Shown here: positions 756 through 26,010 of the stretch, piece after piece
Layout of the letters: every line of letters begins with the position of its first letter
Numbering within the stretch: position 1 is the stretch's first letter
Assembly: GCF_000344685.1 (NCBI RefSeq)
Contig: NW_006920411.1
Location: 3,330,839-3,357,352, forward strand
Length of the DNA: 26,514 nucleotides
From: Gloeophyllum trabeum ATCC 11539
Lineage: Eukaryota; Basidiomycota; Agaricomycetes; Gloeophyllales; Gloeophyllaceae
Direction of reading: 5' to 3'
Made by a program: the position numbers and the translations under genes
The notes under the pieces: model-generated
Databases searched by the model: none
Seen by the model: only the letters and a program-made list of their open reading frames with translations
Told to the model about the DNA's origin: nothing

Positions 756-2645
756 GCCCCATGGGGTTCAACAGAGGCTGGCGGGTGGCCAGCGGCGGGG
801 AGTGCAGCAGGACCATCGACAACAACTTCCTCGGGCGGTTCGACGTGGCCGACGCAGAGCCAGCCCCAACCACTTCCGGACCCGCTTGAACAGATGTCAG
901 CTCCTAAGCCAGCGGCGATGCAGAAGAGGGGACCCCATGTCAATACGAATCGGTCCCAGAAGCCTGGGGAAGAGTTGCAACCCTATCTGGCCCGGAGGAG
1001 GCAGATCATGGAGCACCAGTGGGGTAACCTTTCCCGGAGGAGGCAAGAAGCGGTGTTGAATCGATTGTGAGACTACCGTGAGGGCGCGATGCCAGGGAGG
1101 AGGAAGACAAACGCCAACGTCTACCAATGGTACCTCGACGGCGACGACCGACACGTCCGGGAGCGGGTGACCAATGACAACAGGCAGTCAACGTTGGAGG
1201 GTGTCGATTACTCAAAAATATTCTACGACCCCATCAACGACGAGTGGGACGTCTACGACAATGTGTTAGAGGACCCGTTGCCGCCAGGCGAGGATCCATA
1301 CTCGTGCTTCGACAACGACGACTTTGGCTTCTCCGACGAGGAAGAACGACCGGCTGCACCGCAGGAGCCTGGGCAGTCAGATCCAATGGAGTCAACACCT
1401 GCTGCCACGAGAACACCGCCGATTCCTGCTATCGGTCTGCCCATTGAGAGAGAGCCGTCGACGCCGCCAATCGCGATCGAACGGGTCACCTCCACTGCGC
1501 CGTGCTACCCCGCCTCCAAGTCCATCACCTCGTGGTCCTGCAACTCCTTCCCCTCCTCGCTCACCCAGTCCTGATCCCCCGACTCCTGCTCCCTGCTTGG
1601 GCCATGCATCTACTCCCCACGTCCCGTCGCCTGAGTTGGCTCGAAGACCAAGCGTTGCAGGGGAGGGGTCAAGAACGGAGTATTGGAACATGGTGGACGA
1701 GATTCACCCTCCTGCTCCGCCGTCATCATCAGGGATGTCACAAGACGGGCCGTCGACATCGAGCTGGTCTGAGATGAGGTTGGACGACGACGACGACGCG
1801 GCTTGGGTGGTCACAGCAGGGGGTTCGACAGACTCTGACAGGCGGGGGACCGAGGACGTCCAGATGGAGGAGGGGGCGGGTGACGAAGCACAACAAGGGC
1901 AGCTGGCTGACAACGAGGGTGATGAAGAGGAAGAGGACGCGGATGACGGGGGGGCCAAAACCAAGACGCGCCGCCAGTGACAAACATTGGGGGTTTGCCT
2001 GACGTTGTGTTGCGTAGGTTACTGGAGAGGCGTTACGGACTGAGGGTGCCGAAAGATGACGGAGAAGACAACCAGGGGGAGGCGGAGGAGACTGCAAGGT
2101 GGCTGATGCTTATACGTGAGATGAATCTGGACTTCATCCAGCACCAAACGGTCAGGGTGAAAGCCTCCTGTACAAGGTTGTTGAGGTGGCTCAAGGGCGA
2201 CGATGACCTTCCGGTGAGGGACAGCGTCTTCCACGCGGTCAACAGGCGAACAAACCTGCCCGCCGGGATTCGACTTTGCCGCAAGGGTGCCCGATTCTGG
2301 GTGATCTCAACGGCGACAGAGCCAAGTATCTGGTTAACAACCTCGGTGGATGCCAACCATGCCATCAACATCGTGGAAGACTTGGTCGGCGCTGGAAGGA
2401 TGAATCGCTTGGGGGCGGTGCTCGCCGCGTTGGGTATTCGACAGGCTGGGCCAGTTGACCTGCCTCAACATCGATACGAGCTACCAAAGGTCGAAAGGGT
2501 GCCGTTCTACTACCGCGAACCTGGTCATGTGTGGTGCGACATGGACTACACCGACTACTTGTCCCGGTGTTACAAATTACTCTGCGACCAGGGCAGTGGC
2601 CGCATGGCGGCGATGAGTGGGGGAATCCTGTGGCGACTTGGCGTC

Positions 2646-2985
2646 GAGGTTGTTGAACTAGGCACTGACTTAGCTGCCAGGTTCTACAACATACCAGAAC
2701 GTACCGGAACCCTCTGGAATATTCTGGTATATTCCATTATTGTACAATGGCACGGAACTCATGTGGGTCAGTGACATCATAGGTGGAGCTCAGTAGGATT
2801 AGGGATATTCCACGTAGCTTAGTCAGCCTATGGGCCACTGTGTATATAAACCCTGCAGCTCTGCTGCCTAATGACAAGGGTCGTTCATACAAGCTTTACC
2901 AGTAGCTACAGCATCCAACCAATACAGGTGAGTTGTGTAGGGCGCACTGTGCGTGCTGCTGCCTCCATAACTCTTCATCAGAGGT
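2646..2985. mobile_element. Solo LTR, 330 bp, flanked by GAGGT duplication
   Basis: The LTR body 2651-2980 begins TGTTGAACTAGG and ends TCTTCATCA, the TG...CA termini of an LTR. It is flanked by identical 5-bp copies GAGGT at 2646-2650 and 2981-2985. A TATA-like TATATAAA lies at 2843-2850. There are no internal retrotransposon genes, so it is a solo LTR left by recombination between two LTRs. TGTTG starts are common in Ty1/copia LTRs, but the superfamily cannot be settled from the LTR alone. The insertion splits a codon of the surrounding pseudogene, and the reading frame closes when the LTR and one GAGGT are removed. Confidence 0.85.
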
Positions 2986-3236
2986 CCTGGGACTGGATTG
3001 TGTCATGCTCCTGGCGCAGGACGGCCCTTCGCTGTATGCCATCCACCACGGCGGCGGCGAGTGTCTCGATGATGTGCCAGGCGGGGGCATATGGGAGGAA
3101 GCTCTGTTGGAAGGAGAGATCACTGTCATTGTGGGGCAGTACAATCTAATGACGGGTATGTAGCTTTAACATGGGTGGTATGATATTGACTAATCGTGAG
3201 GACAGGGCAAGGCAACCAAGAGGTGCTTTGTTCCTG

Positions 3237-3250
3237 CATCAGGAAATCCG
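3237..3250 (+). repeat. Left terminal inverted repeat of the first Plavaka-type element
   Basis: The sequence is CATCAGGAAATCCG. It pairs with 10606-10619 at 12 of 14 positions and matches the terminus at 25997-26010 almost exactly. It lies 159 bp from the transposase stop codon. Confidence 0.8.
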
Positions 3251-3424
3251 CCAACCTCTAAATGGTCTGTAAGGCCTGAGAGTCTATATCTCAGACTTCT
3301 CAGGATTACAGACTCGATAGATTTTTAGATATGGAGTTGATTATGCCAGTGTACATATTGTAGTGGCTACTCTAGACTAGCTAATGTACTGATAGCTATA
3401 TTATACACTCATGAGAATGATAGT

Positions 3425-3688
3425 TGAAAGGCCGCTAGGCCTCACTAGCCGGAGGCGTTATCGAGAGACTTAGACACGTAGACGAACGTAGAACACAGTA
3501 TGTGATTTAGCACGAGACGGGGGAAAAGAAGATAAAATACAAGCAGAGTTTCGCAGCCTTATAAGGCGAGCGAAACGACAGAATGAACCATGTTTGACCA
3601 GCCAATCATAGACTCTGATCCCGAAACCTATGACGAAAGCTTCCGTGGATCGACCGATAAGATCGTGGCGTAAGCGCCCACGATTACA
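3425..3688 (-). repeat. Complete 3' LTR of the Ty3/gypsy element
   Basis: The 264-bp LTR begins TGTAATCGTG on the minus strand at 3688 and ends at 3425 in TTTCA. It abuts a polypurine tract on its inner side and the ATAGT duplication on its outer side. Its first 180 bp or so are repeated at about 4398-4578. Confidence 0.88.
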
Positions 3689-4397
3689 CTCCTCCCCCCT
3701 CAGAAGAATCTTGAGGGCCGTCTTGAGGATGACTTTTGAGCCAATCGTCCAGGGCTTGACAGTCTTGTACTTCGCGTCCCGGGAGCCAAGAGTCGTCACG
3801 TTCGTCGTAGCCGACCCAGCGAACGAGGTATTGCCAGCCACGCCCTCTTCGACGAGCTTCGATGATCTTCTGGATTTGCCACTCTTGTTCGCCATCTTCA
3901 GTGACGATAGGACTCGGCCGTGGGAGCTTGCGGGATGGGAAGAGGTCATCGTCGTTAGCGTGATACGGGATTAGATGCTTGGCGTGGAACTCAGGGAAGA
4001 TGTTGGTCGACGGGGGAAGATCAAGGGTGTAGACTGAATGTTCAGGGTGTGCCTCGAGGACCTTGTACGGACCATCAAACCGAGGCATAAATTTAGCAAC
4101 CCTGAACTCGCCTTTTCTCTTATAGTCCTGTCGTCTGTTCTTTGTAGAGAGTAGGACATAGTCGCCCGGGGAGTAGATGTGTTCATGGCCCCTATGCTTG
4201 TTTGCGAAGTATGCCTGGTCGATCTTGGACACGAAGAGGTTGTCGCGGGCCTCAGCAACGTCATTGTCAAGGCGTTGTATAAGCGAATGAGCGTCGACAG
4301 TTTCAGAAGACGGAGCAGAGCCAGGGTCGAGGGGTGGAATAACACGGGGAGAGCAACCGTGGCGGAGTTGAAAGGGGGTGTAGCCTGTAGATGTGTT
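3684..4397 (-). pseudogene. Ty3/gypsy polyprotein 3' end: integrase tail and chromodomain
   Basis: About 237 codons remain of a pol gene. From the N-terminal side: an integrase end motif NTSTGYTPFQLRHG (near 4396-4350), SKIDQAYFANKHRG, the GPYKVLEAHPEHSVYTLDLP segment, and a chromodomain (IIEARRRGRGWQYLVRWVGY, then DDSWLP) near 3840-3740. The chromodomain normally guides integration to marked chromatin. The stop TAA (3684-3686) lies inside the first bases of the 3' LTR, a usual gypsy arrangement. The 5' side is cut at the deletion joint, so no start or catalytic domain is left. Long open frames on the other strand here are shadows. Confidence 0.9.
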
Positions 4398-4578
4398 TAG
4401 CGTGAGATGGGGGAAAAGAAGATAAAATACAAGCAGAGTTTCGCAGCCTTATAAGGCGAGCGAAACGACAGAATGAACCAAGTTTGACCAGCCAATCATA
4501 GACTCTGATCCCGAAACCTATGACGAAAGCTTCCGTGGATCGACCGATAAGATCATGGCGTAAGCGCCCACGATTACA
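4398..4578 (-). repeat. Truncated 5' LTR of the Ty3/gypsy element
   Basis: This is a direct repeat of 3509-3688 in the same orientation with about five mismatches. It stops at GCTAAA on the minus strand, where the integrase-coding sequence (CTAAACACATC) takes over; the last 80 bp or so of the LTR are missing. Confidence 0.85.
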
Positions 4579-7500
4579 ATAGTCCGCATATCTGTTTACA
4601 TAGAAAAATTTGAATGCATCTAAAGAGTAAGAGAAGTGAAAATCATTGGGTATCTAGGTATCACCATAGACCCCTATGAGATGTACCGCACGAACGATGG
4701 AATCAATGTGAATAATGCCTAGAGAACGTCCCCTAGCAGTCATCTCCGGCTTGACAACCCACATACCCGTCACAGGGTCAGGTCTGTCGTGACGTCACAC
4801 GAACCACTCTACAATGGCAGAGGGGTACCGAGTGCGCTTGTAACGGACCGAAAGGAATCTGAGAACGCGCCCGATTACCATACCTTTCATCCCATCCTGC
4901 TCGGGATCGAGAGAAATGAGCACAGTATCAAACTGCGCAAACTCATTACGCCAGCGTGAGTTCGAGCGAATAACTTCGCGATGCATTCCCCTGTCGCCAG
5001 CGAGCTCACTAGGGGCGAAGAAGGTTGCGCTAGCGGACCGGTAGACACGAACTCGGTCATCCACGGATGGCAGATCATCCACATTGATGTCGCCGCTGTC
5101 GTGTGGAATGGCAGCATCTTGCAGTTGCTCGAAGACAAACCGCCGGATGAGGAATTCGAGATCTGGTTTGTTGAGCTCATTTGCGAGGGACTGCAAGCTC
5201 TGTGAATATGCTGATTACTTCGCATGAGCCCCAAGAGCACCACAAACAAACATAGAATATACCTGGCTTCTTCCCAAGTTCCACATACGACATCACCGCC
5301 GGTCCGTCCACATCATGGACATCCACGTTGTCACCATCTACACTGTCATTGTTTCGAATATGTTCTTCATTCAAGTCCTGGGGATTCAGCAAGCCCATAT
5401 CGAGCATTGCGTTGGCAAGAACGGACCCTTTCAGCATCCCGGAGCCCTCAAGCACCGGGCGCATTGCAGCTAACTTGTCGAGCCGCTGATTAGTGACAAG
5501 CATTTGCCCCAGCGGATTATTCCTACTCGATCGGCGCCAGGGTTCTTTGACCGCACGGATGTGCTTCGACTCGGTGATGGACGTACAGACTCCATTTGGA
5601 GAGCCAAAGTTTCTGATTGCTGTTATGTAATGCCCCAATGAGTGTTGTCAAGGCTGCGTGAAGCCATCGGGACAGATGCCGGCCTTCTCGAAGATCGTTC
5701 AGTGCTGATGGAACCGGTCCAGGGACTTCTGCATCGCAGCAAGGGTATCATCGTTGTGCGCTGACCGCCGGGCTAGGTAGCAGAAGTCGAGCAGAGCCGC
5801 AAAACATTTTACCATTTCATCTGGCACATGTCCAGTTATTGCAGGTAGATAGACCTAACAAGAGATGAAAGGGAGTCACTAGACTGGTCTGAGTGGGGTG
5901 CGAAGAACATACCTTCATCAGCGCTTTTCAATTGTTACCAGTCCACTGTTTGAAATTTCTTCCTTCGGGAAATCGTCAAAGTCCTGGAAACGCTGGTACA
6001 GCTGCAATTCTGGCACAGGTATGTCAGTTTTCAAGCATGCAAATGAAATCAAGGATACAGCGCATCTTCGATCAATATCATCCATTATCTTCTCGGCCAA
6101 TGATGTCGGATGTACCGCGTGTAGATAATGCTCCACCCATGTGACGAGGTGGTCCTTGAACGTCCCCTTGATGAGTTGATGCAGAAGGTCAGGTGTTATG
6201 AGCTCGTGGATGTCTGCTCGAGGAAAGTGGCTCGTAAATGCCTAGGTAGTCATCAGTAAGAGTACCAAAACCAATGGCATTCGAACATACAATCACGTTC
6301 ACGTCGAGTCCCCAGGTTGTCCAGATGACCCCAGGATCAAAGCGCTCTAGGAGGAAGTGCATGTGTTCCTGACAACGCGGTTCTCCGCATGTCCCAAGGT
6401 CTTCAGGTAGAGCATCACATCTGTCATGTAATGAGTAAGAATTTTGAATGATTGATAGCAAAGGAGACCTACATAGGACACCAGTTCGAGACAACCCCTG
6501 CCAGAAGTACCTGCTCCGGGTAGTCGGCCAAGAACGGACCCAGTTCATAGATAGCACACCGGAAGTGTGTGTCGGGACAACGCACAACCTCCGGGGTAGT
6601 CATTGCAGCCTTCAGCAGTGACATGATGTGCGCCAACGACGCGTGGTACAGCTGCTTCTTGAAGAGTCGGAACTCGTCTGTATCATCTTGCTCACGCGCA
6701 GCTGAGGCAAGAGTCAGACATGACGGAGAGTTCAAGGTGATATCAGCATACCTTTCGGAATAGAGAGGAAGGCAATTGGCAGTATTGCATCCCGGTGTGC
6801 TTGGCGTACAGAGTTGTGTAGATTACCCAGTGACATGTAAACAGGATGGAATTCGTTGTTGCCGGTAGCGACCGACACGGTTGTCTTGTCCGCCCCAAGG
6901 AGAACGGGCACGAACATAGCCCCGTGAGTAGCTGGGTCTTGGGCGATGTGCGTCTTAAATGTCCTGAGTCAGCGTATTGTAATTTGAAACTGCCAGTCGA
7001 ACAGCTTACTGCTTTCCGGTGTGCCCACCGCCCAGAAATCAGGTTCGAGTATTGCCGCTTCCCTGGCCCAGTGTACTCTTCGAACGGTATGTAGTCGAAC
7101 TTTCCATCAAAGCCGGGGTTGTCAAGTATATTGTGGGCGATGGTCCGAGCATCCCGACAATAGACCGTGTACTCCGCTCGCTTCCATGATGGGGCATCGG
7201 GAGGGAGTTCACCTGTGTAGTGTACGGTGAAAGAGCTCCACGGCGCGTCACCATAGGGAATTGAATCCAAGGTGCTATACAGATCCTTTGCATCTTTGAA
7301 CACAGTGTTGTTGGAGCCTGATAAGGTGTTATGAGCTGCCCATATTTCCAGCAGCTCATCTATGTTTCCTGCGGACATCTGGACTTTCTTGAATATGAGC
7401 TCGGCAAACTGGAATGATGGGCGGCTGTCGAATGGGAACCAGTTGTCAATTCCGGGCAGTTCACGACCAGGGGGCTGAATGTAGTTGGGCAGATACTCTC

Positions 7501-7737
7501 TGTCTTCGTTGCAAGGTTGAGCTATGTCGTTATATAGTTTTGAGCATGGTAATTGACCCGTGAATACAAGATATTCGTGTAGAGCTTACCATTCAAGTCA
7601 GCATGGTAATGGAAAGTAGAATGAGGAGGCTCGGGTCTTGGGTACAAGTGCGTTCTAGCTTCATGAAAAGCAAGTCCTCGGGGTTTCAGAAATGATCTAT
7701 TGCATGTTTTACAGACAAAGCGGCGGGGAACAGCCAT

Positions 7738-7902
7738 GGCAGGGTATTACAACAGGACAGTCAAGTAACGAAGGAAACCAACTGCGTACTTAGCGGGTAA
7801 CACCATCGGCAGGTGGTGCATGACAAACAAACGCAACCTCTGCCAGCTCACACATACTTCGCCTCTATCCACCATACTCTACACACTCATTTCACTCACT
7901 TC
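7738..7902. promoter_or_regulatory. Divergent intergenic region of the first element
   Basis: Only 165 bp separate the two start codons (transposase ATG at 7737 on minus, second gene ATG at 7903 on plus). The stretch must have held both promoters, or a shared one. I see no clear TATA box, and no operator can be named. Confidence 0.5.
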
Positions 7903-10080
7903 ATGGCTAGAACAACTCGTAAATCCGCCAAACCAGCGCCGGCCGCTGCTGCAGATGACAACTGGGGTTGCGCGAGGCCCCTGCCGTCACAGTAATCAGT
8001 AAACCGCTCACTCGAAAGACGAAAGCTGCTTCTGCGAAGCAGAGAAAGGCAACAATGGATCGACATGACAACATACCTGAAAACCCTCTTCCCATTGATA
8101 CTCCCGTAGCTCCCCAGCCACACCCATATGCCACTCGAAAGAGCAATGACCCACACCCTGGCATCTCAGCCGGGCTGCAGAAATGGACCATGCAGGAGGT
8201 CCAAGCCAATGCTGCCAGAAGACAGGCAGAGGAGACCGCGCGGCTGGCTGAAAAAGAGGCCGCTCTGTTGAAAAAGCGAGAGGAGCACGATCGAGCAGTC
8301 ACGGAGCTAGCAGCATTTGAGGATTAACTGAGAGTCGAACATATGAGAGTCGAGCAGGAACAGAGGCAGAAAGAGGCATAAGTCGTTCCTGAGGAAGAGC
8401 TCGATGCCAATGGTGATCTTGATCGAGAGATGGACGTCAACTTCGGCCCCGGTGCCCGAGATGATGCTACCTCCGCCGATGACTTCATGGAATCTGGGAT
8501 GACAGATGCCGAGATGATTGATGCTGAGTCTGCCTCGGAGCAGGAGATGCTGCCACCAAAGGCGGATAGGAAGGTAAGTCTGCCGGCTCACCTGGTATGC
8601 CGGAGTCTGACTTGGATACATTACCTCTACAGGCAAAGAAAACGAAGAGAGAGCAACAGCAAGAGATACGCGGTTCTGTCGAGAATGCCAGGAAGACACC
8701 TGCAAGTAAGGGTAAGAGGAAGTCGGATACAAAGTATGCTTGTACTTCTCTTATACTGGCCACTGTTCTATATTAACTATCTAATCAGCGCTGATTCCGA
8801 TAAGACGATGAAGAAGTCTAAATCGGGTTCTGCCTTTGTGCCCAATTGGTGCAATGGCGTCAATCCTCTGCTGCTGCAAGTCCGGCAGGTATCAAACTCC
8901 GATCTCGGATCTTCCTCGGATTCTTCCTCGGCTCTCAAGACCAATGGCCTTGGAGGGTTTACAGACGACGATGTGCTCGTGCAACCAATGTGGGACTGAG
9001 ATGGGCAGCCCGTCAACCGTCGCGTGCGTCCCATGGTCATATCCTCAGGGTCTGGTATGCTAATGCCTTCGCAGGTTCAGATGGTGATGGTCAAGGCTCG
9101 GGCTCCCAAATCAACAGTACCGGAAGAGCGTTCGATGGCAAAGCAATCCCTTCCAGACTGGGCACGCCTCAAGTGGGACACTGCTCTTATCCCTAGCCTG
9201 GTAGAGCACTTTGGTGCTGAGCCAAACCCCTGGGTCTCATCGACAAGTGGCAGCTCATTCCGCACGACCTTACAATCAGTCATTGACCGGGTCTATCCGG
9301 AGGAGCACCTCAGCATCACCCTCAATGACAAGGTCTTCAAGATGGTACGATCTCATCTATTCCACTGAGGGTTGCTAGAGCTAATCTTTGGACCAGGCGC
9401 AGCAAGCAGTATATAACTGGCGGGCCAACTTCGCCCGGGTAGCCAAAGAGGTGGTGCGAAAGGACCTTCTGGCGTGTGGAGGAGGAGATGGCCCGGATAA
9501 ACGGCAAGAGATCCAGACATTCGTCCGTGATGCTCTCGACGATCACGGTTACGCATTCTGGGGTAAGCCGAACATTACCATATGTCAGTTTCCTTGTCTA
9601 CTCATATTTGGTCACTCACATCTCGGCCTAGAATCCGAAACAAACTAAAGACGCGCTGTGCTCGCCGTACATCTTGAAAACATTCCAATGCCATATCACG
9701 GCAACGAAGGGCAGCCAGATCTCGTGTGGTCTACCACGAGGTGGACTGGCACTCACAATCACTGCGGTATGTCACTGCCCTTGCCTTCTCTCATGGAATC
9801 TGACTATGGGTAGGTTGAATGGGTGCTGGAGATGTGGAAGACCAGGAAGTATGAATCAGACGGGACAAGTTTCTCAGAAGTCGACGTGGGTGACATGACC
9901 GAGCTGTGGGTGAACGGGTCTGTCTCCACGTTCTATAGGAAGCCGCACCGGTTCGAGCACTTCTTGTACAAAGCCAACACCCTTGTCAAGAAGCCGCAAT
10001 GGAAAGTCCACTGCTGCCGCCGCTCTCGAACTGCTATCCGGGATGCAAGCAGTCCTGTCCCCGAGGACTCGGATGCATAG
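7903..10080 (+). pseudogene. Second gene of the first Plavaka-type element, decayed
   Basis: The function is unknown. The N-terminal half is Lys/Ala/Glu-rich with a coiled-coil-like stretch (about 8190-8320: ARRQAEETARLAEKEAALLK). The C-terminal half is folded-looking (WARLKWDTALIPSLVEHFG; SPYILKTFQCHI; LPRGGLALTITA; VEWVLEMW). Likely introns: 8574-8632, 8734-8788, 9345-9396, 9563-9631 and 9767-9813. Lesions include a frameshift near 7966, TAA codons near 8326 and 8380, frame changes between about 8860 and 9010, a TGA at 8998, and a one-base phase mismatch at the 9563-9631 intron. Proteins of this make-up sit beside Plavaka transposases in mushrooms as I remember them; that is recall, not a search. 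The gene is divergent from the transposase. Confidence 0.65.
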
Positions 10081-10605
10081 GTAAGTTTTCAATACTCTCC
10101 TTGATGTCACCTGAATGCGAAAATGAGTGCTGTAGGTGTCCACCGCTGTGCATGCTTGTATCGGAGGGTCTTGAATATGTATGTTTTTCGTTTGTCATCC
10201 TGTTGTCATGCGGCGTGCTAACGGTTTTCTGCCCAGGGGATTTGTGAATATATTGTGTTCTCATCATGTTCTTGCTCTTCATACTGTGTTTGTCCTTCCT
10301 CCATTTTATCTCTGTTACACTCATTTTAATTTCACGCCTAATAATTACATTCTCGAGTACATGTATTTCCCCAATATATTGCATTTTCTTGTAAATTGTC
10401 TGCGAAGCCTAACCGGCTGAGCAGTCTGACCAAAGCTTCGCCACTAGATATCTGAAGTGTGAGGAGGTCTGAAAATATTCACCGTTCACTGTCTTACCGC
10501 TCAAAAGTCAGGTTCTGAAGCTCTCTGCGTATAAACGTCCTAAGTTGGTCTGAGGCGGCCTGAGGCGCCCTGAGAACGCTGATATCAGACGTTTCAGACA
10601 CCTCC
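10081..10605. other. Right subterminal region of the first element
   Basis: There is no gene here. A possible 3'-UTR intron (GTAAGT at 10081 to CTGTAG at 10136) follows the stop of the second gene. From about 10490 to 10600 the motif CTGA recurs in both orientations (GTCTGAGG, CCTGAGG, CCTGAGAA, GATATCAGAC), as expected for subterminal transposase-binding sequence in CACTA-like elements. The match to that role is inference. Confidence 0.5.
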
Positions 10606-10619
10606 CGGTTTTACTGATG
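10606..10619 (-). repeat. Right terminal inverted repeat of the first Plavaka-type element
   Basis: On the minus strand it reads CATCAGTAAAACCG, matching 3237-3250 at 12 of 14 positions. It is followed at 10620-10621 by the duplicated TG. Confidence 0.8.
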
Positions 10620-10911
10620 TGGTGGCTGACGGAGAGCACTTGGGACGCGTCAGGTCCAGGGCTAGCGGGGTACTGGACGCGGGGGCAGAGCTATGGTATC
10701 AAAAGCGGTTGGGTGATATTCGGAGTGGGAGTGCAGTGCCGTTGAACCGATCGGCGTGGACGCGGAAGCTGCGGTACGACACCTCGCGAGTCAAGAAGAT
10801 CATGAAGAGGCTGGGGGTAAACTGTGAGAGTATGCTCGGTAAGTTGCTCGCGCGTCCATACATGATATAGGAGAGCTAACGCGAAGACCGTTAGCGCCCT
10901 TGGTGCATTGA
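10620..10911 (+). pseudogene. 3' part of the uncharacterised host gene interrupted at 3236
   Basis: This continues the reading frame left at 3236. With one TG copy removed it gives Ser-Trp-Trp, then ESTWDAS, GYWTRG, then (after a one-base loss in the G run 10681-10685) ELWYQKRLGDIRSG and SAWTRKLRYD. An intron at 10839-10894 (GTAAGT...GTTAG) joins a short last exon that stops at TGA 10909-10911. The same order (SWW..., W.SG...GYW, WFQ/WYQ-RL..IR.G) is typical of the C-terminus of this family as I remember it. This piece and the 561-3236 piece are one former gene. Confidence 0.75.
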
Positions 10912-11485
10912 AGATGAGCAGTGCGGTTACGGCGTGGCTGCAATTGTTTTCTTGACGGACAGCTTTTCTTGTTTTCTCGTCGCAATCTCATCTTAGTCTG
11001 GTATTGTTTTCTTGATGTTCTCCTTGTTGCACTCTCCACCCAGTCAAATAGTTCATGTGTTTCATACTACTCCGATACATGTCTCAATGTCATATCATAA
11101 AGGTAGTATACATGAATATAAAAAAACTATCTATGACTTGAAGAACAAGTGGACGGGGCTCCCATGTCGGAAATTTCAGACGCCCATCACAATGACCTAC
11201 CCGTCACAATATCCTCATAAGGTAATTATAACCTGATTTAGTTAGGACGCTGCGATTGCGAGGGATTCATGATGCCGTTGTGATGACGTCTAGTTTCGCT
11301 ATCGATATCGTGCAGGTTCGTCGTCCGACACGTCCTGCATACAAGCTCGCGCTCGGTCCTCTGGTCACTCTTCTACCAGCAGAGTCTACATGACGGTCTA
11401 GGCAATCCTTTCTCAGCCAGAAATCTTTGTAATCTATGTACATTGATTGTATAGTTATCGACTCTCATCGATCCTCAAGAGTGAC
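10912..11485. other. Intergenic stretch between the host pseudogene and the second transposase
   Basis: No gene can be supported. It should hold the old 3' end of the host gene and the left end and promoter of the second transposon. I looked for an inverted terminus of the CATCAG type and found none, so the left boundary of the second element is not located. CATCACAATG (about 11189) and CCGTCACAAT (about 11203) are two similar short blocks of unknown meaning. Confidence 0.4.
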
Positions 11486-14400
11486 ATGGCGCCTGCGCGA
11501 CATCGTTCCAAAGCTGCACAGAAGGAGTGCCATCTATGCGGGAAACAGTTCGGGGCTTCGGGGCTAGCGAGCCACCAGCGGAAATGTGAGCGGGAGCTTG
11601 CCGACATGGAGCGCAACCGGTTGTACGAGGAGAAGGTTCGCCACAAGGGTGAGGAACGACGGCAAGGTGAGTGATTTCCACCATAGTGGCATGGTTCAAC
11701 TAATAATGATATCTGCTAGCCGCAAAGAAGGCCCGAAGATCTCAAGTACGTGGAACAGGTGAGTTGTATGTGAACACCATCACACTCGCTACACATGGTC
11801 CACGTTCGTCCACAGGGTTTGTCAATATTGCGGAGCAATCATACGATGGGTCAGCATCCATCCAGCCCGGTAAGCTCGGCATTCGAAGCAGCACTGCTGC
11901 TGTATCATCTGCTTGTCAAAATGTCTAACGAGTGTCGTAGATGCCTTCGAACAGGAACAGCCATCGGCGGCGACCAACCGTGACGAGTCTGAAGAACGTC
12001 TTCAAGTTGACGATATCAAGATTGAATGGCACCCTCATAGTGGCCGCCCGCCCGAGATCCACCGGTTTGCGGATTATCGACGTGAGGTAGATTCTACCCC
12101 AGCACCGCCTCCGGACAGTGAGCCATGGCGACCATTTCAATCACGGCTTGATTTCGAGTTTGCAGAGCTTGCTCTCCGTGCTGGTCTCACGAAAGCTGAG
12201 ACTGACACGCTGTTTACGCTGTGTCATCGGGCTGTTGCGGGTGAACCATTTACACTGCGTGATCACGCAGAGCTGACTGTAACCTGGGAGAGTGCATCCT
12301 TCAAGTGTACTCCTGTAAGCTAGTCATACTATGGTTATGTTCTCTAATGTATAATGAGTGTTGTGTGTCAGTTTGAAGCACAAACCATCACTGCAACATA
12401 TGGGAAGGCAGAAAAGAAATACCAAGTATATTACAGGCCGATCTGGAACTGGGCCCTTGACCTTCTGCGGGAGGAACACTTGATGAAGTATTGGCACTGG
12501 GATGCCCAACGTTGCTATAAGTATAGTGGCTCTGAGTTTAAGCGATTCCTATATGAACCATGGACAGCTGACCGGTGGTGGGATATTCAAGTAAGTAGAT
12601 ACACTGGTGCCTTCCTGCAGGTATTGCTGATTGTTTTGTTAGTCATCTCTTCCAAAAGATGCAAAACCACTCTGCTTCATTCTCTATGCAGACAAGACAA
12701 AATTGTCTTCATTTGGGACTGAGATGGGCTATCCTGTCATTGCCCGCATTGCGAATATAGATATTGCTGTCCGGAATAACTCTGGAGTTGCAGGTGGACG
12801 AGTTGTGGGTTGGCTACCAATTGTATGTTAAATATACTTCTTCAGACTTCACAATTGAATTCTGGGACAGGTGAAGGAGAACCCAAGTGACTCAGGAAAA
12901 GCTGGATATGCTGACTTCAAGCAGATTGTATGGCATGAAGCATTTTATGCAGTACTCAAGGCTGTCGCAGAATATTCCCGTACTGGCTATCACTTCAAGT
13001 GTGCTGATCAGATCATACGATTTCTGTTCCCCATAGTTCTTATCTTGTCTGCAGACTATGAGGAGCAGTAAGTCTTGCAACCTATTATCATGATAGACAG
13101 AAATAAAAATTCCTTTTATCCAGATGTGTCATGGCTCTCATACGTGGCTTTCGCGGTCTATGCCCTTGCCCTATCTGCCTCGCCCCAGCCAAGAACCTTG
13201 TGGACACTTCTGAAGAATATGAATTACGAACCACTGCTACGATGCAGGCCATATTTCATAAAGCAAAAGAGCTAGGACGCACTGCAGGTGAACAGCTACT
13301 CAAGTCATATGGCCTTCGAGCAGGAGTTGTATGGCTTCAAATACTATCTGCTGACAGTAGTCTGATTGCCCACTACAGAATGTTTTCTGGAAGATCTGCC
13401 TTTCTGATCCATATCTGGCATTAAGCTTTGACCGGCTCCATGCTTACCATGGTGGCCTGTTCGGCCGGCATATATGGCCACAACTGAAGCTATATATTGA
13501 AGACCTGGGACGTGCTGCTGGAACAACACTCGAAAAACAGTAAGATAAACCAAGTTAATAGTTAAGTCTTAGTTTCTACATAATAACTTACTTTCTAGGG
13601 TGGGAGAGCTGCCCCGATGGCGTGACTTCAATCACTTCAATGAAGTTATGAAGACAAAATTCACCGATGGTCAAAAGTTTGAAGATTTGTCAAAGGTAGA
13701 GTACCTTGATATGATGATATCCACCGCTTCAACATATGTTTCTGGCAGGTCCTTCTCTATGCTATCTATAATCTGTTTGATCGACGGCAGCATGCACATA
13801 TCCATTTATTGCTGCAGTGCCTGAGGCTATACCTTGAGCTTGATATATATGTTGGGCTGGAAGTTCATACCAGTGATACTCTTGAAGCAGGGCAGCAGAC
13901 CCTTGCTAAATTTTCACTAAAATTGCAGGTGAGTAGTATCTTTGTTACTTTGCCCATATTAGCTTCACATGACATTTAGGAATATATTGATGCCCCAAAA
14001 CCTCCTGGACCTTGGTGTGACAAGGATTGGGAATTCCCAAAGGCACACTCACATAAGCATGTCTTTGATGATATACGTGCTAAAGGTGCAACCCGTGTCT
14101 ACAATACGAAGGTCAATGAGAAGGTCCATGGGCCTCTGAAGGAGGCATATCGCCATACAAACTATAAGCAGGTTGCTGGCCAGGTAATCTTCAATACAAG
14201 ATAACACAGTACATGGTTTTACTTCTAATACTCAATGTGCAGATACTGAGAGAAGATCACTGGAAGTTGGTGTCTTCTCTCATCCGGGAACATATAACTT
14301 GCCTTGATGCTTACAACCAACCTGGGGAAGAGTACGATGATGTTGGGATAATGCACATAGCTCTTGGCTCACCTCAGACACCCATTACTTTCAAGGACTT

Positions 14401-15028
14401 GGAAGATCTGCATGGAAAGGATCTGGCATTCAAGAATTTCCGCATAAAACTTGGGAAGTTCTTCAGCACCTTCTTACCAGCCCATGGTATACCTATTCCG
14501 GAAGGCCGTCCAATACATTTTGACCAGTATGATAAGGTGAGCAATACTTTTCTACATATTGTCAAAATTTTAACCAAAGTCTTTAATTCATAGATCAAGG
14601 AACACCGATATGTGAAAGTCACTTATGAATCCATGGTCGACTGGCAAGCAAAAACTGACCATCTACGGTGTAGTCCTGACTTTCATCACCATGAACGTCA
14701 TGACTCAGTGATAGTCAACACCATAGCTGGCAATATCTTTGCAAAGCTGCTCTATGTCTTCACTTGCAGCACAGGAGGAAAAGTGTACCCATTGGCTCTA
14801 ATACAGCCTCTGGATGCAGGAGCAGGGGCGCGCCGACAAACAGACCAGGACCTTAAATTCCATCGATTGCGAGAGAGGCCTCGGAAAAGCTCAGAATTCA
14901 TTTCACTGGAAACTGTCATCCGTGGTTCCTTCATTGTTCCTGACTTCAAAACAGATGGGGACTTCTTTCCAGTAGATGTCATAGATGGTGACATGTTCCT
15001 CCGGCTTCGGGAATTGTATGGTGCCTAA
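11486..15028 (+). CDS. Plavaka-type transposase, apparently intact, 14 exons, 939 aa
   Basis: Transposase of a second element, of a different subfamily from the first. Exons that join without a stop: 11486-11666, 11720-11758, 11816-11869, 11941-12314, 12372-12590, 12643-12822, 12871-13067, 13124-13328, 13379-13539, 13599-13695, 13749-13928, 13980-14183, 14243-14536 and 14594-15028; total 2820 nt, divisible by three. All introns are 49-71 nt with GT...AG. The N-terminus has a C2H2 finger (CHLCGKQFGASGLASHQRKC, residues about 14-33), then WRPFQSRLDFEFAE, ADKTKLSSFGTEMGYP, FLFPIVLILSADYEEQ, CPCPICLAP, LSFDRLHAYHGGLFG, DAGAGARR, SEFISLETVIRG and a C-terminal VDVIDGDMFLRL. The start is the first ATG before the finger. 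Catalytic acidic residues cannot be assigned by eye. Whether it is active cannot be read from the sequence. Confidence 0.85.
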
Positions 15029-17811: not shown

Positions 17812-18282
17812 ATCCTTACATGCATCCTGTAGTAATCTTGATTGTGTATCGGGATTCGTCGTTCTCTTAGACTGCTTTATCTACATTGATTAGATAGTCG
17901 AATTGATGATTTCGGCTATGTCAGGCATTTGTTCACAGCCACCGACTTCCTGTCGTTTGCGCTTGCAAAGTATGCAGAACGCCTACCGGGGCTCCTCGCA
18001 AAGCGCAACGTCCCATCGCCTTTCCTCCTCCGACTCACCACTCGCCGTCTTCTCTGATTTGTGTTCTGTGCATGTGTATGGCTGTGGGAATTATGCTGTA
18101 GGTGCCACATATGACTGTGTACACTGAGCTATACTGGTAGACTGTTTCTAATCTTCTTTGCGATGCAGGGCATTCCGTCAATCATGATCCATGATCGCAC
18201 AGAACATGAAGACGGAAATCCAAGGCTCGTAGAACCCAAATACGGATGTAAGGAGACCGGTACTGAAACTATTTACCCGCCA
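17812..18282. other. Stretch with an unassigned open segment before the Hsp70 pseudogene
   Basis: This holds the 3' end of the preceding gene. From 17899 to about 18055 on the plus strand a 50-codon open segment reads like an exon (DDFGYVRHLFTATDFLSFAL, then an Arg/Leu-rich end) and stops at TGA. I do not recognise it. A second short open stretch from 18163 leads into the Hsp70-like sequence and is not part of Hsp70. The right end of the second transposon must lie near here but I found no terminus. Confidence 0.4.
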
Positions 18283-18730
18283 GGCCCCACGTTCGGCATT
18301 GACTTGGGAACGACAATCTCATGTGTATCCGTCATGGAGTGCAAGAGCTTGCGCGTAATCGAGAACGCCGACGGTGCGCACAACGCTGTCCGTGGTCGCG
18401 TTAACAAAGCATGGCAAGCGCCCCGTTGGTCCCCCTGCGAGCGTCAGGCTATCGTCAACTCAGCGAACGCCGTCTACACGTTCAAGCAGCTCGTCGGGCG
18501 CCAGTTCAATGACCCCGAGGTACAGAAGGATATGGAGCACTGGTGATTCAAGGTCGTACCGTCAAGGTTGAGGATGGGTGAAGATGTCATATAAGTAAGT
18601 GTTGCACTGACAGTATGTTACATTGACATGAAGGCTGATCTCATCCAAGTCACCAGAGCAACTGTCTTCGACGGTCCTCTTGAAGATGAAGGAGACCGCG
18701 AACAGTCCCTGAACATAAAGGTCACGTAAG
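18283..18730 (+). pseudogene. Mitochondrial-type Hsp70, N-terminal fragment
   Basis: Hsp70 is an ATP-driven chaperone; the mitochondrial form drives protein import and folding in the matrix. GIDLGTTISCVSVME and RVIENADGA are the phosphate-1 region, then QAIVNSANAVYTFKQLVGRQ and DPEVQKDMEHW. Between about 18378 and 18440 the frame slips and returns; the other frame carries TLSVVALTKHGKRPVG. TGA follows HW at 18544-18546, where a Pro codon is usual. After an intron-like gap comes SPEQLSSTVLLKMKETAN (about 18650-18705). No mitochondrial targeting peptide is seen at the front. The sequence then breaks off into an inverted BEACH-gene fragment. It is a dead fragment; a functional copy presumably exists elsewhere. 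Confidence 0.85.
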
Positions 18731-25996: not shown

Positions 25997-26010
25997 CATC
26001 AGGAAAACCC
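25997..26010 (+). repeat. Terminal repeat of the third element
   Basis: CATCAGGAAAACCC differs from the left end of the first element only at position 11 and the last position. It identifies the border independently of coding evidence. Confidence 0.75.

Follow-up and report, generated by a model that had tools for sequence, protein, structure and literature searches.

In the passages of Kojima (2025, PMC12730594) that deal with ends and target sites, PlavakaB transposons are described with termini CATCA..TGATG and target-site duplications (TSDs) of 2 or 3 bp, and PlavakaA transposons with termini TGT..ACA and a TSD of 2 bp. The same source gives CAC..GTG ends and a 3-bp TSD for the fungal EnSpm families that it covers, and calls the transposases of EnSpm/CACTA and Plavaka elements recognisably similar. 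In Marasmius oreades, autonomous Plavaka elements have been defined by the Pfam family PF18759 (PMC8290104, in the part that defines them). Here we describe an element at positions 3237-10619 of a 26,514-nucleotide stretch of the Gloeophyllum trabeum ATCC 11539 genome (contig NW_006920411.1, 3,330,839 to 3,357,352; hereafter the window). We consider it highly probable that this is a Plavaka element of the PlavakaB type that integrated into a host coding exon with duplication of TG, and in which a Gypsy element was later nested. An earlier sequence-only reading of the same DNA had put the limits at 3235..10621, both TG copies included. We regard these limits as settled because a paralogue of the host gene reads through the insertion site, because relatives of the two ends stop there or within nine bases, and because other CATCAG(G/T)-ended elements in the genome carry mostly 2-3 bp repeats.

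The history of the locus may be pictured as follows. A cut-and-paste Plavaka transposon would have entered the coding exon, duplicating 2 bp (TG); by analogy with its superfamily, the minus-strand transposase presumably cleaved the DNA at the CA/TG ends and transferred them to a target site opened with a 2-bp stagger. A Gypsy-type retrotransposon would later have inserted at 3424/3425 and been reduced by the loss of most of its internal part; the transposase gene would also have decayed.

Terminal repeats and the joint in the host gene

The two terminal repeats are identical at 12 of their 14 bases, with TG outside both, as first noted from the letters (Table 1). Because extending the comparison to 16 positions still gives only 12 matches, we take the terminal repeat to be about 14 bp long. 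The pattern CATCAGKAAAWCCG has exactly two perfect matches in the window, which are the ends of the element, and a third site with one mismatch at 25997; shuffled windows contain on average 0.52 such sites with up to two mismatches. Terminal repeats and TG by themselves are suggestive and only moderately beyond chance. They are not proof, because 23 of 300 windows shuffled with their dinucleotides preserved hold at least one CATCA-anchored pair with at least 12/14 agreement and a 2-bp flank repeat (observed, 1; shuffle mean, 0.08). When the flank repeat is not demanded, 66 of 300 shuffles have at least the two CATCA-anchored pairs observed. A CATC anchor yields a second pair with TG flanks (1607-4179), which is surely spurious.

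The sequence-only reading had argued that removing the element and one TG restores an open host frame. The joined frame is indeed open as TGT TCC TGG TGG CTG, but openness is weak evidence because another frame, two of three in all, is also open across the joint. Stronger support comes from an empty site in a paralogous host gene, which that reading had proposed to look for. The joined host protein has four matches in its own genome, namely three pieces in the window and one relative on contig C16. This paralogue has an open frame of 926 amino acids and is 32% identical to the host protein over query residues 78-296; the two host exons together match it with a tblastn E of 4e-22. Past its own phase-1 intron, which was placed by eye, the paralogue continues ..WAEYSWWPKSTNWSASGFGAVGYWTNG, and the host ..QEVLCSWWLTESTWDASGPGLAGYWTRG. 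The paralogue thus reads through the insertion site, with Y-S-W-W-P where the host has C-S-W-W-L. The codons are TCT TGG TGG in the paralogue and TCC TG^G TGG in the host, which places the insertion within the first W codon of S-W-W and confirms the host frame at this point. Among 15 joints scored against the paralogue, the one that drops two bases of the right flank came out on top with 84; the other four in-phase joints scored 81, 80, 72 and 70, against 11-20 for the ten out-of-phase joints. By this alignment the phase of the joint is firm, and the dropping of exactly two bases leads narrowly. The unoccupied allele is predicted to read TTCCTGGTGGCTG at the joint.

The gene into which the element inserted is a pseudogene, because it combines a frame change with two insertions. 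Its frame shifts 13 to 40 codons past the joint, and similarity to the paralogue switches frame within about 10661-10742. The upstream exon has 293 open codons once the solo long terminal repeat (LTR) and one GAGGT are removed; of 84 candidate matches to this LTR in the genome, 40 were scored, the LTR itself among them. The 5' region of the gene is also spread over more than one frame, for which introns might be the reason. When the joined host protein was compared with a protein database, none of 5678 candidates scored at E 0.001, which leaves the C16 paralogue as the one relative of this gene found here. In a DNA search, the right host flank matched only its own locus.

Relatives of the ends and other CATCAG-type ends

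The one DNA relative of the left end besides itself lies on C7; it is 93.9% identical over 197 bp and continues beyond the nested insert for a further 1253 bp at 89.2%. The alignment passes 3237, runs nine bases outside and then stops. The right half of this relative was not found in its 9.9-kb stretch, 706 bases of which were not covered. The right end likewise has one relative besides itself, C2:123155 (87.1% over 349 bp), whose alignment begins at the terminal base 10619 and runs inwards only; within its 9.9-kb stretch it shows the right end only.

The exact 14-bp motif is of little use as a genome-wide probe. It has five exact matches in 35.5 Mb, with about one expected from the base composition of the window and none for a reversed control pattern. 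Two of these matches are the ends of the window element, one is the right end at C2:123155, and two lie on C13 (1040553 and 1274602), where neither a partner end (pair scan) nor a transposase match was found in the 9.9-kb stretches, one of which has 1461 bases of N. As a terminus for the whole group, the proposed CATCAG(G/T)AAA(A/T)CCG is too narrow: CATCAG(G/T) followed by AAA or CAA is common to other such ends in the genome, and CCG is not.

A second Plavaka element lies at C7:1257212-1264001 (6790 bp). Its ends, which were picked by scanning for the motif in the neighbourhood of a transposase exon matching PF18759 at 2.9e-30, agree at 11/14 positions and are flanked by a TSD of TA. An alternative partner for its right end at 1254690 (11/14) has no repeat and was set aside as chance, as were repeat-flanked pairs on C7, C2 and C13 that are unrelated to a transposase. 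No ends were found in the scanned parts of the stretches that hold the C20 and C1 transposase relatives; the pair listed for C1 was rejected, as one of its ends lies inside its own transposase exon and it has no repeat. On C26 there is a possible left end only.

CATCAG-type ends also occur in a 322-bp miniature inverted-repeat transposable element (MITE), which has CATCAGGAAAAAGGG at one end (GGGG in one copy) and CATCAGTAAAAAGGG or CATCAGTCAAAAGGG at the other. The genome holds five two-ended copies, one with an internal gap, and one 50-bp fragment on C12. Three of the five are flanked by a repeat (TT, GA and CTA) and two have none; 2-3 bp repeats at three of five have a chance probability of 0.002. 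From its shared ends, the family looks as if it is mobilised by a Plavaka-type transposase. One copy (L010 8521-8842; C7:1281120-1281441) is situated 79 bp from the Plavaka fragment on C7 that is related to the left end of the window element.

At window position 25997 begins the end of yet another CATCAG-type element, and the segment from there to 26514 is 97-99% identical to copies on C11 and C5. The alignment of both copies to the window begins precisely at CATCAG, and the mutual alignment of the two starts five bases further out. The dinucleotides that flank the three copies are TG (window), AC and AT. Over the seven two-ended sites (the window element, the second C7 element and five MITEs), the repeats are TG, TA, TT, GA and CTA, with none at two sites. 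Repeats of 2-3 bp at five of seven would arise by chance with a probability of about 2e-5, a figure to be read with the fact that the window pair was found partly through its repeat. The varying flanking bases rule out a TG target consensus, and the earlier proposal of TG as the target of the group falls with it.

Several observations weigh against the insertion that we favour. The sole relative of the left end matches seven of the nine bases immediately outside it, there is a single DNA relative per end in the genome and no full-length copy was seen, and two of the five two-ended MITE copies are without a flank repeat. The best joint (84) is barely ahead of the in-phase joints at 81 and 80, and the empty site is that of a paralogue within the same genome and not an orthologous sister-strain allele. 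The shuffles with an equally good pair likewise speak for a chance inverted repeat, with the real ends of the element elsewhere. We give this view next to no probability, as the alignments to relatives end, on both sides, at these points or within nine bases of them, and the host frame resumes across the ends with the residues of the paralogue.

The paralogue cannot separate a duplicated TG from a TG carried at one end of the element without duplication, and its joint fits either cut. The true left end could then be TGCATCAG, or the right end CTGATGTG, with no target duplication and with the TG of the empty site as host sequence on one side. In line with such an element-borne TG, the dinucleotide precedes CATCAG at four left ends: in the window element, its C7 relative, the 25997 element and the 50-bp MITE fragment on C12. 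However, the 25997 end has AC and AT at this place in its other two copies, the five two-ended MITEs carry TT, TA, GA, GC and TA, and the C2 relative has AC outside its right end. The repeats at three of five MITEs would hardly arise by chance, and the published PlavakaB ends, in the part of PMC12730594 that gives them, are CATCA..TGATG. The varied duplications at other sites favour duplication over an element-borne TG, and we hold the latter to be very improbable. A TG duplicated on insertion is our preferred reading of the joint.

At position 7 of the terminal repeat, the window element and each of the five two-ended MITEs have G at one end and T at the other, and the relatives of the left and right ends of the window element have G and T, respectively. 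One could imagine that the ends are marked differently, by an end-specific signal that would make the transposase pair unlike ends. We think this unlikely: the element at C7:1257212 has G at both ends, and the MITE copies all come from one ancestor. The 25997 end is uninformative here, its side having been assigned from its likeness to the left end.

Genes, nested insert and neighbouring features

The N-terminal third of the transposase domain is matched by PF18759 (E 2.1e-25), which bears out the assignment to Plavaka made from the letters. Later stretches of the gene match relatives on C7, C1 and C20 (tblastn). PlavakaB transposases are characterised by C(2)C and H(3-4)H motifs that lie between the second D and the last E. 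By eye, the start of the window gene is zinc-finger-like, and the frames across an intron candidate at 6472-6421 suggest a C-x-x-C; no H(3-4)H was assigned. Small insertions and deletions relative to the C7 relative, together with stops between the relative-matching stretches, are the reason why the window copy seems incapable of producing a transposase of its own. In the divergent second gene, the stretches 7959-8327, 8382-8999 and 9000-9368, where the scan ended, matched no Pfam family at E 0.01, and within them there was no sign of the TET/JBP dioxygenase that some Plavaka elements encode. For the one stretch of it that was searched, the genome holds no relative, in contrast to the two ends of the element, which each have one.

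The earlier length of 7.4 kb stands for the span as it is today, which includes the later Gypsy insertion of 1154 bp; without this derivative and one ATAGT, the net length is 6224 bp. The insert has the TG..CA LTR pair, 5-bp TSD and chromodomain-bearing pol end of a Gypsy element. Its LTR remnants differ at 5 of 183 aligned bases, and its site is empty in the C7 relative (L007).

Elsewhere in the window, a second Plavaka transposase gene occupies 11480-15028 on the plus strand (limits by eye; PF18759 5.3e-8 in 12348-12722). An LTR-like repeat at 70-517 also occurs twice in L010 and once in L011 (94.9-97.5% identity). A 24-bp tandem repeat within an open frame lies at 561-769, upstream of the host gene, and has a sub-threshold match to Prion_octapep. 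The N-terminal part of an Hsp70-like gene is found at 18115-18546 on the plus strand (PF00012 4.2e-15).

Table 1. Features of the Plavaka locus, in window coordinates
Feature	Position	Strand	Details and basis
Plavaka-type element	3237-10619		7383 bp; 3235-10621 counts both TG copies
Left terminal inverted repeat CATCAGGAAATCCG	3237-3250	+	transposase C-terminal side
Right terminal inverted repeat CATCAGTAAAACCG	10606-10619	-	
Left TG of 2-bp TSD	3235-3236		sequence; paralogue alignment best with 2 right-flank bases dropped
Right TG of TSD	10620-10621		sequence; paralogue alignment
Host gene exon, interrupted by solo LTR	1947-3155	+	open frame; C16 paralogue
Solo LTR, TG...CA	2651-2980	+	330 bp; 5-bp TSD GAGGT at 2646-2650 and 2981-2985
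Host intron, phase 1, GT..AG	3156-3205	+	50 bp; same place as paralogue intron read by eye
Host exon, part before insertion	3206-3236	+	paralogue alignment
Host exon, part after insertion	10622-10828	+	frame; paralogue similarity
Plavaka transposase gene, several exons, apparently disrupted	4657-7737	-	limits approximate; frames, intron candidates, tblastn
Open stretch, N-terminal third of Plavaka transposase domain	6743-7585	-	PF18759, profile 1-99 of 325
Second gene, divergent from transposase	7903-10080	+	limits approximate, several frames
Nested Gypsy deletion derivative, TG...CA	3425-4578	-	empty site in C7 relative; LTR comparison; repeat family D2
LTR of Gypsy derivative	3425-3688		remnant of other LTR 4396-4578, truncated
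Left TSD ATAGT of Gypsy derivative	3420-3424		
Right TSD ATAGT of Gypsy derivative	4579-4583		
Retrotransposon pol C-terminus, Tf2-1-like SH3 and chromodomain	3684-4448	-	PF24626 2.3e-10; PF00385 2.5e-8
End of another CATCAG-type element CATCAGGAAAACCC	25997-26010	+	three genome copies (window, C11, C5)

Comparison with described elements

At this locus the limits of one Plavaka element are secure, and the empty site in a paralogue can be read codon by codon; the termini and short duplication published for PlavakaB thereby gain independent support. The locus should be useful in the repeat curation of fungal genomes and leaves the view of how Plavaka elements work unchanged.

Set beside the systems as they are characterised in the passages cited at the outset, the element resembles EnSpm/CACTA in its CA..TG ends, but the fungal EnSpm families described there combine CAC..GTG with a 3-bp TSD, in contrast to CATCA..TGATG and 2 bp here. 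A Plavaka transposase and a 2-bp TSD are shared with PlavakaA, whose TGT..ACA termini differ from CATCAG..CTGATG in the window. The PF18759 domain that defines the autonomous elements of Marasmius oreades (PMC8290104) is found in the window element too. With PlavakaB the element shares the PF18759 transposase, the CATCA..TGATG termini and the 2-bp TSD, and the portion of PMC12730594 that describes this group offers no defining difference; the window copy is decayed, contains a nested Gypsy and has a second gene whose three scanned stretches match no Pfam family. Judged by its transposase domain, termini and TSD, the element falls within the PlavakaB type as that portion describes it. It is a new, decayed element of the known Plavaka group, whose termini and short TSD are already in print in broader form (PMC12730594).

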